Shown one piece after another: positions 18,451-21,328 of a DNA stretch of 64,000 bases. Origin of the DNA: Flavobacterium chryseum. Its GTDB lineage: Bacteria; Bacteroidota; Bacteroidia; Flavobacteriales; Flavobacteriaceae. The stretch is from positions 558,001-622,000 of the forward strand of contig NZ_SNWW01000002.1 in assembly GCF_004362015.1 (NCBI RefSeq). Direction: 5' to 3'. Position 1 is the first letter of the stretch, and each line of letters starts with the position of its first letter. A model generated the notes under the pieces. The model had not been told where the DNA came from, made no database searches, and was given only the letters and a program-made list of their open reading frames with translations. A program made the translations under genes and the position numbers.

Positions 18451-18726
18451 ATGAGTACTAAAGAAAAAGTAAGAGAAAGAGTTCGCGAAAAGGAAGCGAC
18501 AGGTTTCAATAACGAAATCATTGTTTATAACGACGATGTAAACACTTTTGATCACGTAATTGATACTTTAATGCGTGTTTGTAGTCACACACCTGAACAA
18601 GCAGAACAATGTTCCTTAATTGTACATTACAACGGAAAATGCACCGTAAAAACGGGTCCGATGGACAAACTAAAACCTCAATGTACACAACTTTTGGAAG
18701 CTGGACTAAGCGCCGAAATTGTTTAA
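18451..18726 (+). CDS. clpS: ATP-dependent Clp protease adaptor ClpS
   Basis: ClpS delivers N-degron substrates to the ClpAP protease. The 91-residue protein carries the family core IVYNDDVNTFDHVIDTLMRV at about residues 24-43, with the N-end-rule pocket residues (N-D-D, then the D/H/V face), followed by HTPEQAEQCSLIVHYNGKCT and KTGPMDKLKPQ. It forms a unit with prmA that ends at a strong terminator. Confidence 0.95.
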   Translation: MSTKEKVRERVREKEATGFNNEIIVYNDDVNTFDHVIDTLMRVCSHTPEQAEQCSLIVHYNGKCTVKTGPMDKLKPQCTQLLEAGLSAEIV

Positions 18727-18740
18727 TTATCAATAATGTA

Positions 18741-18790
18741 AAAAACGTTATAAATTATTCTATATTTGAATAATTTATAACGTTTTTTTT
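18741..18790 (+). terminator. clpS terminator whose loop also carries a promoter-like -7 box
   Basis: A perfect 20-base stem (18741-18760 with 18768-18787) has a 7-base loop and a T run reaching 18790. Loop and following base read TATATTTG (18761-18768), a match to TAnnTTTG. The next gene's ATG is at 18791, immediately after the T run. Confidence 0.9.
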
Positions 18791-20062
18791 ATGGAAGAAT
18801 ATGGAAAGATATTAATTATCGCTACGCCTATTTTTTTAGTTTTAATTATAATAGAAAAAATTTACGGCATCTATAAAAAAGAAGACACTGCACCTCTAAT
18901 AGATAGCGTTTCAAGCATTAGCTCCGGAATTACCAATTCTGTAAAAGATGTTTTAGGATTAAGCCTGACTTTTATTTCCTACGAATGGCTGGTTTCTAAA
19001 ATTGCTTTTTTTCATCTTGAAGCTAATGTTCTTTCCTATTTTATTGGCTTTTTCGTAATTGATTTTTACGGCTATTGGAGCCATAGATTAGCGCATCAAA
19101 TTAATTTTCTTTGGAACAAACATGCGATTCACCACAGCAGCGAAGAGTTTAATCTCGCTTGCGGACTGCGGCAACCTATAGCAAGTTTGGTTAATTTATT
19201 TACTTTTTTATTGATTCCTGCCGCATTACTGGGCGTTCCCGCTACGGTAATCGCCATTACTTTGCCTCTTCATTTATTTCTTCAATTTTGGTATCATACC
19301 AAACACATTAAAAAAATGGGCTTTGTAGAAAATATTCTGGTTACACCTTCGCATCATCGTGTGCATCATGCGATTAACCCGGAATATCTGGATAAAAATC
19401 ATTCGCAAATATTTATTTTTTGGGATAAGTTATTTGGTACTTTTCAAGCAGAATTAGACGATGTTCCTCCTGTTTTTGGAATCACAAGACCGGCAAATAC
19501 CTGGAATCCGATTAAGATTAATTTTCAGCATTTAAGTTTACTAATTTCAGATGCCTGGCGCGCTGATAACTGGAAAGATAAATTGACAATTTGGTTTAAA
19601 CCAACAGGCTGGCGTCCCGAGAATTTTGAAGAAAAATATCCTGTACACAAAATTGAAAACGTTTATAATTTTGAAAAATACGGCACTCAAAATTCACAAA
19701 AATTAGTTTATTGGTCTGTAGCACAAATGCTGATTACGCTTTTGTTTGTGACTTATTTATTTGATAATATTGCTAAAATTGGTTTGCCTAATATATTCGT
19801 TTACGGCTTTTTTATTTTAATAACGATCTACAGTTATTCTGAATTGATGGATAAAAGTAAATATGCCGTTTTTTGGGAAGGATTTCGTTTCGTAATTGCC
19901 ATTGCAATCATATCTTATTATGGCGACTGGTTTGGTTTAAACGAGGTTTTATCTATTTCTAATTATATCATTTTAAGCTATTTGAGCTTGTCATTTATAA
20001 CTTCAGTTTATTTTGTAACTATAGATTTTAAAACTACCCCCAGCCCATTAATCAATCCCTGA
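18791..20062 (+). CDS. fatty acid hydroxylase superfamily protein, alkylglycerol monooxygenase (AGMO/TMEM195)-like
   Basis: This membrane protein has the eight-histidine di-iron signature of the superfamily: HRLAH (98-102), HAIHH (111-115), WYHTKH (167-172) and HHRVHH (188-193). It resembles vertebrate alkylglycerol monooxygenase more than sterol desaturases. HHSSEEFNLACGLRQ follows the second cluster, TPSHHRVHH is followed by DKNHSQIFIFWDKLFGTF, and FGITRPANTWNPIKINFQHL comes next. It also has the AGMO-style extra C-terminal transmembrane block (about 290-415). AGMO cleaves the ether bond of alkylglycerols using oxygen and tetrahydrobiopterin. A lysoplasmalogenase gene starts 6 bases after its stop. 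The superfamily is certain; the AGMO assignment is from remembered motifs. Confidence 0.85.
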   Translation: MEEYGKILIIATPIFLVLIIIEKIYGIYKKEDTAPLIDSVSSISSGITNSVKDVLGLSLTFISYEWLVSKIAFFHLEANVLSYFIGFFVIDFYGYWSHRLAHQINFLWNKHAIHHSSEEFNLACGLRQPIASLVNLFTFLLIPAALLGVPATVIAITLPLHLFLQFWYHTKHIKKMGFVENILVTPSHHRVHHAINPEYLDKNHSQIFIFWDKLFGTFQAELDDVPPVFGITRPANTWNPIKINFQHLSLLISDAWRADNWKDKLTIWFKPTGWRPENFEEKYPVHKIENVYNFEKYGTQNSQKLVYWSVAQMLITLLFVTYLFDNIAKIGLPNIFVYGFFILITIYSYSELMDKSKYAVFWEGFRFVIAIAIISYYGDWFGLNEVLSISNYIILSYLSLSFITSVYFVTIDFKTTPSPLINP

Positions 20063-20068
20063 CACATT

Positions 20069-20755
20069 ATGAAACATACTTTATTTATTAAACTTTATTT
20101 TGTCATTAGCCTGTTTTATTTATTATTTTTATTTTTAGGCTATGAAAATTTAGATTTGTATCTAAAACCTATTTTAATTCCTCTTTTGGGATTTGTCGTT
20201 TATCTTCATGAAAGATTTCCCCTTAAAAAAACGCTTTTAATTGCTTTACTATTTTCCTGGATTGGTGATATTATTTTACTTTTTGCGGACATTGACGAAA
20301 TCTATTTTATTCTGGGATTAGTTTCGTTCCTGATTTCGCATATTATGTATTGCGTTGTTTTTAGCAAACAAATTAAGGCGGAAACCAAAACTAATAAATT
20401 TCTTTTTGCAATAGGAAGTCTTGTAATTATGCTTTACTTAGTTGGAATTCTCTCCGTTTTATATCCAAGCCTGGGCGATCTAAAAATTCCTGTAATGGTT
20501 TATGCGACTGTTATTTCGACTATGCTTTTATTTGCGTTTAATGGCTTTTTAGTCTGGAAAAAATCGGGAAGTAAATTGGTATTTATTGGCGCGATTGTAT
20601 TTGTTGTTTCAGATACTATTCTGGCAATCAATAAATTTTATTCGCCAATCGAAAAAAGTGCCTTTTTTATTATGCTTACTTATCTTGTGGCACAATATCT
20701 GCTTGTAATTGGTGTCTTAAAATTGAATTCGAAGGTTGAATTGATTCAAAATTAG
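20069..20755 (+). CDS. lysoplasmalogenase (YhhN/TMEM86 family)
   Basis: YhhN/TMEM86 proteins are integral membrane hydrolases that split the vinyl-ether bond of lysoplasmalogens. This 228-residue protein has about eight hydrophobic helices. The family motifs are LLIALLFSWIGDIILLF, with its conserved Asp, and the later IGAIVFVVSDTILAINKFY, whose second Asp completes the proposed active site. A middle segment LVSFLISHIMYCVVF also fits. It follows the AGMO-like gene by 6 bases and must be co-transcribed with it, which strengthens an ether-lipid assignment for both. Confidence 0.88.
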   Translation: MKHTLFIKLYFVISLFYLLFLFLGYENLDLYLKPILIPLLGFVVYLHERFPLKKTLLIALLFSWIGDIILLFADIDEIYFILGLVSFLISHIMYCVVFSKQIKAETKTNKFLFAIGSLVIMLYLVGILSVLYPSLGDLKIPVMVYATVISTMLLFAFNGFLVWKKSGSKLVFIGAIVFVVSDTILAINKFYSPIEKSAFFIMLTYLVAQYLLVIGVLKLNSKVELIQN

Positions 20756-20846
20756 TTTGAACTTTGTTACAGATTTTAAGATTAGCGCAGATAAAAATTT
20801 AAGATAATTTAATTCTTTTAATCTGTCGCAGAAGCAATTTTGCTTT

Positions 20847-20854
20847 TATATTTG
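20847..20854 (+). promoter_or_regulatory. candidate -7 box of the short lipoprotein gene
   Basis: TATATTTG fits TAnnTTTG and stands 21 bases before the ATG of the downstream lipoprotein. The spacer before it contains GCAGATT-type words (20768-20796). Confidence 0.45.
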
Positions 20855-20875
20855 TACCACCAATAACTAACAACC

Positions 20876-21328
20876 ATGAAAAAAATAGCTTTAATTCTCG
20901 TTTTACTAATTACTGCAACTTCTTGCGTAAGCACAAAGTCTACTTTGAAAAATGTAGACGATAATGCTCCTGATTTAGTATTAAAAAAAGACAATACTTT
21001 TGCTATTACACTTTTCAGTAAAGACAAAAAATACGGCTACGATCCAGATTATCCTGTCAATATTTTTTACCGAAATACCAGAGATGAAGCTTTAAACGAA
21101 ACTCGTTTTCTAAATGCTTTAGCAGGTCCAAATGGTGAAAAAATTACTTATACAAGATTAGAAACCTGCTGTCCTTTCCCGACTAAAAGAAGCGATATGG
21201 GAGCCGGATTTCTGAATGTTTATGAGTTAAAATGGGAAGGACAAAAAAAGCCTGTTAAACTTTATTTGAACATTTATGAAAAAGGAATTTTGATGGTTCC
21301 GCTGGGATTGAGTTTGAAGAAGGAGTAA
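20876..21328 (+). CDS. small lipoprotein of unknown function
   Basis: MKKIALILVLLITATSC is a lipoprotein signal with Cys17. The 134-residue mature part is beta-rich, with FAITLFSKDKKYGYDPDYP, ALAGPNGEKITYTRLETCC (two adjacent Cys) and KLYLNIYEKGILMVPLGL. I recall homologues in flavobacteria that are mislabelled 2-dehydro-3-deoxyphosphooctonate aldolase, but nothing in this sequence supports an aldolase; the true KdsA is encoded further downstream here. The function is unknown. Confidence 0.75.
   Translation: MKKIALILVLLITATSCVSTKSTLKNVDDNAPDLVLKKDNTFAITLFSKDKKYGYDPDYPVNIFYRNTRDEALNETRFLNALAGPNGEKITYTRLETCCPFPTKRSDMGAGFLNVYELKWEGQKKPVKLYLNIYEKGILMVPLGLSLKKE

Follow-up and report, generated by a model that had tools for sequence, protein, structure and literature searches.

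An AGMO-like membrane hydroxylase paired with a YhhN lysoplasmalogenase homolog in Flavobacterium, a candidate module for ether lysolipids

Does a bacterial gene pair join an AGMO-like membrane oxygenase and a lysoplasmalogenase in a common role on lipid ethers? The question is raised by a stretch of 64,000 nucleotides from Flavobacterium chryseum, hereafter the window, in which an initial annotation proposed an AGMO-like monooxygenase gene followed by a YhhN/TMEM86 lysoplasmalogenase gene and read the two as an operon for ether lipid degradation. AGMO has been described for animals, and a 2013 review, in its accessible parts, states that purification had not been achieved (PMC3617469). The available portions of two studies describe bacterial YhhN as protection against host lysoplasmalogens (PMC9471318, PMC9052158), and one of them calls a bacterial lysoplasmalogenase remarkable, since plasmalogens are absent from Legionella itself (PMC9471318). 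A literature search on the pairing or on bacterial AGMO, which took in few subscription papers and the accessible parts of PMC9131029, PMC9471318 and PMC12143016, did not find the pair.

Two membrane enzyme genes in tandem downstream of clpS

The window lies on contig C2 of a 5.0 Mb genome that is 99.96% complete (G000). Both open reading frames proposed for the locus are present on the forward strand, with 6 bases between them. The first (positions 18791 to 20062) encodes a 423-aa AGMO-like membrane di-iron protein of the fatty-acid-hydroxylase family, here called FAH, which was assigned from PF04116, alignments, motif tables and an AlphaFold2 model. The second (20069 to 20755) encodes a predicted YhhN/TMEM86 lysoplasmalogenase of 228 aa, here called YhhN, which was assigned from PF07947, an alignment and the residue list in the accessible part of PMC11994398. 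The ClpS gene (18451 to 18726, forward strand; PF02617) is the usual upstream neighbor in the genus and is given as context only. PF04116 matched residues 84-217 of FAH with 93.2 bits (cut-off 31), and the histidine motifs originally quoted for this protein are found in its sequence; PF07947 matched YhhN at 153.1 bits (cut-off 25.6). The genome contains four PF04116 matches in total and one further YhhN-like match, which is weak and below the cut-off.

FAH resembles AGMO except at two positions

According to the accessible parts of PMC3617469 and PMC7911779, AGMO has nine essential histidines along with the further essential residues Q162, D233, N235, Y236, W243 and D244, and mutants of the ninth histidine and of these further residues lost all activity. 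FAH contains counterparts of all nine histidines (98, 102, 111, 114, 115, 169, 189, 192 and 193). In an alignment of 55 sequences H98, H102, H111, H114, H115, H189, H192 and H193 are invariant, and invariant too in the FAH alignment are H169, the ninth histidine, and Q128, D201, N203, W211 and D212, which correspond to Q162, D233, N235, W243 and D244 of AGMO/TMEM195 (EC 1.14.16.5). The spacing is nearly identical in the two proteins: the offset between human AGMO and FAH numbering is 34 through Q162 and 32 from H201 onward, a single two-residue shift. Unlike AGMO, FAH is bacterial and has Q103 at the position of E137 and H204 at the position of Y236. The available text of PMC3617469 describes E137 as interacting with tetrahydrobiopterin and as reportedly missing in the other hydroxylases of the family. 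We observed histidine at the 236 position in every intact genus member examined, and relatives of FAH retain one or both of E137 and Y236. Because the D-x-N-Y pattern is also present in L004, a plain hydroxylase of 275 aa encoded by the same genome, the loss of tyrosine in FAH is a departure from the wider pattern. The AGMO identity given to the first gene was borne out at the nine histidines, Q162, D233, N235, W243 and D244 and was contradicted at E137 and Y236. Judged from these residues, the FAH family looks AGMO-like overall, with an altered pocket in the window's branch.

The AlphaFold2 model of FAH (mean pLDDT 92.9) has four long helices past residue 300 (303-325, 334-353, 358-377 and 390-415) in the place that TM6-9 occupy in AGMO, in agreement with the C-terminal membrane block described by the initial annotation. 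FAH and AGMO are of similar length (423 and 445 aa). The possibility that the C-terminal block of FAH is a fragment of YhhN was ruled out (hhalign probability 1.9%). The catalytic part of the model matched the yeast fatty acid hydroxylase Scs7 (4zr0) with a Z of 5.1 over 169 residues at 17% identity. The fold of the catalytic core is alike, but this Z is low and tied with those of unrelated helical proteins in the same list, and the C-terminal block of FAH falls outside the match. A Foldseek search of the model against the PDB returned nothing at E < 0.001, and a PDB sequence search with FAH returned no match. The sole NCBIfam match of FAH was to the OlsE ornithine lipid hydroxylase model (NF052566), with which it shares the catalytic core at 58.9 bits; however, the cut-off of 475 is far away and the match covers FAH residues 82-225, with the C-terminal block excluded. 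The same genome encodes a second long hydroxylase of 406 aa (L111/L003, C10:131122-132219), which has E at the E137 position and Y at the Y236 position and lacks Q162 of AGMO; an identical state was found in G127.

YhhN carries the proposed lysoplasmalogenase residues

The accessible part of PMC11994398 reports tests of TMEM86A/B residues K43, G81, D82, H104, G182, S189, D190 and Y213, all of which except G81 matter. In our alignment their counterparts in YhhN are K33, G66, D67, H91, G174, S181, D182 and Y205, and the presence of all eight proposed active-site residues, together with the PF07947 score, supports the earlier prediction of a YhhN/TMEM86 lysoplasmalogenase. Seven of the eight are invariant among nine aligned YhhN, the exception being H91, which is replaced by Q in L110. 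A PDB sequence search with YhhN yielded only two chance-level matches. The lysoplasmalogenases Lpg1991 of Legionella, Rv1401 of M. tuberculosis, TMEM86A and TMEM86B (EC 3.3.2.2) likewise have PF07947, the eight proposed active-site residues and a similar length; unlike them, the window's YhhN adjoins an AGMO-like gene and its function is predicted from sequence. Tandem arrays of YhhN genes also occur in the same family, with seven matches within about 5.4 kb in L275 (G138:C77:47155-52512) and four consecutive genes in G096:C14:273502-276291; L276 is listed with these arrays.

The pair is conserved within the genus

We surveyed 150 genomes of the genus for FAH at E <= 1e-60 and for YhhN at E <= 1e-20. 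FAH was found in 61 genomes and YhhN in 61. The two genes occur together in 59 genomes, in every one of which YhhN lies directly downstream of FAH on the same strand. This adjacency is far beyond chance, and the pairing, far from being rare, is kept by 59 of the 61 FAH carriers of the genus. Just 4 of the 63 genomes with either gene lack the other: FAH without YhhN was seen in G218 and G274, and YhhN without FAH in G155 and G294. Since YhhN comes straight after clpS in the latter two genomes, they look like cases of FAH loss from between. A third genome with YhhN only, G460, came from the phylum sample described below. Among the few uncoupled cases is also G167 (L120, G167:C23), in which FAH is interrupted by an internal stop and the downstream YhhN is intact.

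The pair recurs in a second FAH group

At family level, 149 genomes were surveyed with YhhN accepted at E <= 0.001 and long FAH at E <= 5e-112, a threshold set off by a clear gap from the next matches at 4e-55. Long FAH was found in 41 of the 149 genomes, the window's own counted, and YhhN in 66. YhhN was present in 27 of the 41 FAH carriers versus 39 of the 108 others (Fisher 0.0016), and by coordinates the two genes are adjacent in the window's own genome only. The flanks taken for 56 own-group FAH loci outside the genus (L081-L096, L121-L160), at most 5 kb long and in some cases limited by contig ends, contain no YhhN, so within the window's FAH group the operon is seen in the genus only. 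Other lipid-related genes recur near these 56 loci: PF02666 phosphatidylserine decarboxylase near 15 and PF01148 cytidylyltransferase near 14, on the opposite strand and 2-4 genes downstream of FAH (e.g. L134). These two families were among those compared in the neighbor survey, in which most of the commonest clusters lay outside the family-library comparison. Such psd- and cdsA-type neighbors would fit lipid work of another kind too. One of the loci, L094, comes from a 1.7 Mb genome with a distant family code (G585), and its FAH is 73-75% identical to that of the window; we attribute this FAH to recent transfer or assembly contamination.

A second FAH group was obtained from the phylum search and from GTDB species genomes, the latter represented by the best 80 of at least 590 confirmed stretches. 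Its members are about 27-34% identical to the window's FAH over the alignment, and the hosts among the matches listed include Pedobacter, Cytophagales, Saprospiraceae, Pseudomonas, Gemmatimonadota, Myxococcota, Acidobacteriota and Spirochaetota. Among the phylum loci of this group YhhN is directly downstream of FAH in 4 of 14 (L099, L104, L106 and L110), with overlaps of 11-26 bases, and among the best 80 of at least 590 named loci it is directly downstream in 16 (L181-L186, L189, L192, L193, L195, L198, L200, L210, L218, L228 and L246). In L187, also of this group, YhhN is 2 kb away. Pairing across the Bacteroidetes, by which the operon proposal was to be judged, is upheld in part: it recurs in the second FAH group, but in the window's own group outside the genus the two genes often share a genome and are not adjacent. 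FAH is followed in 12 second-group loci by a lipoprotein-like protein of 130 aa that has no Pfam match.

FAH and YhhN co-occur across the phylum

We then compared the distribution of the two genes in 345 genomes of the phylum, with FAH taken at E <= 1e-58 and YhhN at E <= 1e-8 and both searches taken as the same sample. YhhN was found in 38 of 49 FAH carriers versus 22 of 296 others (Fisher 3e-25), and with the window's genus removed in 24 of 35 versus 21 of 287 (7e-16), both tests treating genomes as independent. Counted per genus, with genera treated as independent, the fractions were 20 of 29 versus 13 of 125 (4e-10). For the genus codes g156-g188, whose numbering, rising with kinship distance, leads us to read them as further genera within the same order and class, they were 16 of 17 versus 3 of 16 (1e-5, genera again treated as independent). 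The search of named FAH genomes without an adjacent YhhN covered 50 of 64, and 32 of these 50 hold YhhN elsewhere. All 8 Pseudomonas among the 50 hold YhhN, a count taken among FAH carriers only.

Residue states and adjacency on the trees

For the FAH tree, 173 proteins were reduced by removing 41 that were more than 78% identical to a kept one and 27 family rows, which left 105 rows and 5 outgroups; the tree holds no eukaryotic sequences and hence no animal AGMO. E137 is present in 59 of the 105 rows, Y236 in 34 and both in 27, including 8 Pseudomonas rows. In this bacterial tree the window's FAH groups with the E137 plus Y236 FAH and is separate from two shorter hydroxylases encoded in the same genome, both on very long branches. 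L111, chosen as an outgroup, was placed inside the second FAH group on a long branch.

Histidine at position 236 is found in all 23 rows with an adjacent YhhN, whereas the 78 rows without one divide into 28 with H, 32 with Y and 18 with L or M; 4 rows were unscored for adjacency as their contigs end too soon. Before thinning, the corresponding figures for histidine were 41 of 41 rows with adjacent YhhN versus 30 of 127 others. In a tree-aware test of this link about 1.8 of 4 independent pairs changed in the same way and 0 in the opposite way, too few pairs for a decision (median p 0.5). Adjacency changes at least 7 times on the FAH tree. In a 47-row FAH tree, forcing all 16 paired rows into one clade costs 498 log units with a p-AU of 0.115, a value that looks unstable, so a single clade of the 16 is not formally rejected; when one clade is forced on only the second group's 12 paired rows, the cost is 44 units (p 0.042). 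In the YhhN tree 12 of 57 inner branches are starred, and with a tree this weak co-inheritance and repeated recruitment of YhhN are not separable.

Pterin-related genes

Our search for pterin carbinolamine dehydratase (PF01329) in the window's genome gave no match, but PF00351, of the aromatic amino acid hydroxylase type, matched twice within a frame of 595 aa in the same genome. PF01329 was found in 11 of 23 genomes with Q137/H236 FAH, a state assumed from the genus for 3 of them, versus 20 of 21 other listed FAH carriers (Fisher 7e-4). It also occurs in 8 of 20 listed genus genomes without FAH, which stand outside this comparison. Since 51 of 64 genomes have a PF00351 match, we do not read the shortage of PF01329 as absence of pterin. 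A search of the 64 genomes for the plasmalogen-desaturase family PF10520 gave no match, and as the positive control was likewise without a match, this negative carries no weight.

Possible functions of the pair

The conserved operon in the genus, its recurrence in other lineages with a divergent FAH and the co-occurrence across the phylum argue for a joint function, of which ether lysolipid breakdown is the simplest. On these grounds the joint ether-lipid role put forward by the initial annotation is plausible, while the reaction and substrate belong to what we infer. Our preferred but tentative reading is that FAH and YhhN form a small membrane module that breaks down ether lysolipids to fatty aldehydes. 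Its substrates, reactions, lipid source and electron donor we infer as follows. With its di-iron centre and O2, FAH would oxidize alkyl (lyso)lipids at the carbon beside the ether oxygen, and the resulting hemiacetal would collapse, releasing a fatty aldehyde along with the glycerol (phosphate) head. YhhN would hydrate the vinyl ether bond of lysoplasmalogens and release the same aldehyde and head group, so that between them the enzymes would clear both types of ether lipid or feed on them. These lipids would most likely be of external origin, for instance from eukaryotic or other bacterial membranes. Because the FAH pocket is changed (E137 to Q and Y236 to H), the electron donor may be other than tetrahydrobiopterin. 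The phylum-wide coupling with an AGMO-like oxygenase would provide YhhN with a partner and a testable pathway, and among the bacterial relatives the cofactor positions 137 and 236 read E/Y, E/H, Q/H or K/L, a natural series on the cofactor determinants of AGMO.

Alternatively, FAH may act on another membrane lipid, such as an ornithine or glycine lipid, a sphingolipid, a hopanoid or a carotenoid-like compound, with a matching non-plasmalogen substrate for YhhN and no involvement of ether lipids. The OlsE model is the sole NCBIfam match of FAH (58.9 bits), E137 and Y236 of AGMO are not retained, Psd- and CdsA-type phospholipid genes lie on the opposite strand near 14-15 of the 56 own-group loci, and the tandem arrays of YhhN paralogs in family genomes may mean wider substrates. 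However, the OlsE cut-off of 475 is missed by far, YhhN has the complete set of proposed lysoplasmalogenase residues, and it is YhhN that recurs as the same-strand gene beside FAH in distant lineages. We regard this alternative as unlikely, though as a serious contender. The predicted chemistry of the ether lysolipid module would be identical if the pair removed membrane-lysing lyso-ether lipids from the environment and was not a feeding route, a role that has been proposed for the YhhN of Legionella and Mycobacterium. The accessible parts of PMC9052158 and PMC9471318 report that another bacterial YhhN is protective, but use and defence are not distinguishable by sequence, and gram-negatives are described as already resisting the membrane effects of lysophosphatidylcholine (PMC9052158, available portion); such a detoxifying role seems to us highly improbable.

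A sequential route was considered as well, in which FAH with H204 would desaturate a 1-O-alkyl lysolipid to its 1-O-alkenyl form and YhhN would hydrolyze the product to an aldehyde and a head group. Neither enzyme would then be enough alone, which would explain why the pair is kept together, and the coupled retention in 59 of the 63 genus carriers of either gene is consistent with this. The association of histidine at 236 with an adjacent YhhN (23 of 23 paired versus 28 of 78 unpaired tree rows; 41 of 41 versus 30 of 127 before thinning) hints at a sequence of desaturation and then hydrolysis, and PF04116 is a family that contains desaturases as well as hydroxylases. Yet the tree-aware test had too few pairs (median p 0.5), YhhN is not adjacent in 28 of the H-type rows, and it is often present elsewhere in genomes whose FAH is Y-type. 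Moreover, the known alkyl-ether desaturase PEDS1/CarF belongs to a family other than that of FAH, and desaturation and hydroxylation are indistinguishable at the sequence level. We consider the sequential route improbable, and its full form, a bacterial two-step breakdown of saturated ether lipids in which an FAH with H for Tyr makes the vinyl ether without tetrahydrobiopterin and YhhN hydrolyzes it, more doubtful still. Were the two-step pathway true, the YhhN substrate would be made inside the cell, and this would explain why a lysoplasmalogenase is kept by bacteria said to be without plasmalogens.

A hairpin and variable flanks at the locus

A perfect 21-bp inverted repeat with a T run lies upstream of the pair (positions 18740 to 18789, forward strand; arms 18740-18760 and 18768-18788), and the T run abuts the FAH start codon. 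The hairpin loop contains TATATTTG at 18761-18768, a putative promoter of the FAH-YhhN unit. This element is retained in 54 of 61 upstream stretches (the window counted and at least one genome represented twice), 18-24 nt before the ATG. The hairpin arms vary yet remain complementary, with 81% of positions paired among 43 distinct sequences; 500 re-deals of the right arms, a control that ignores relatedness, gave a mean of 71% and a maximum of 75%. The hairpin is probably the clpS terminator overlapping the promoter of FAH-YhhN.

Every locus of L161-L180 except L177 has PrmA and ClpS upstream of the pair (19 of 20). In the relatives L161, L172 and L176 YhhN is separated from the next lipoprotein by an opposite-strand pair of sulphur-transport proteins, assigned to PF04143 on the basis of L161 only; the corresponding interval in the window (20755-20876) is 120 bases only.
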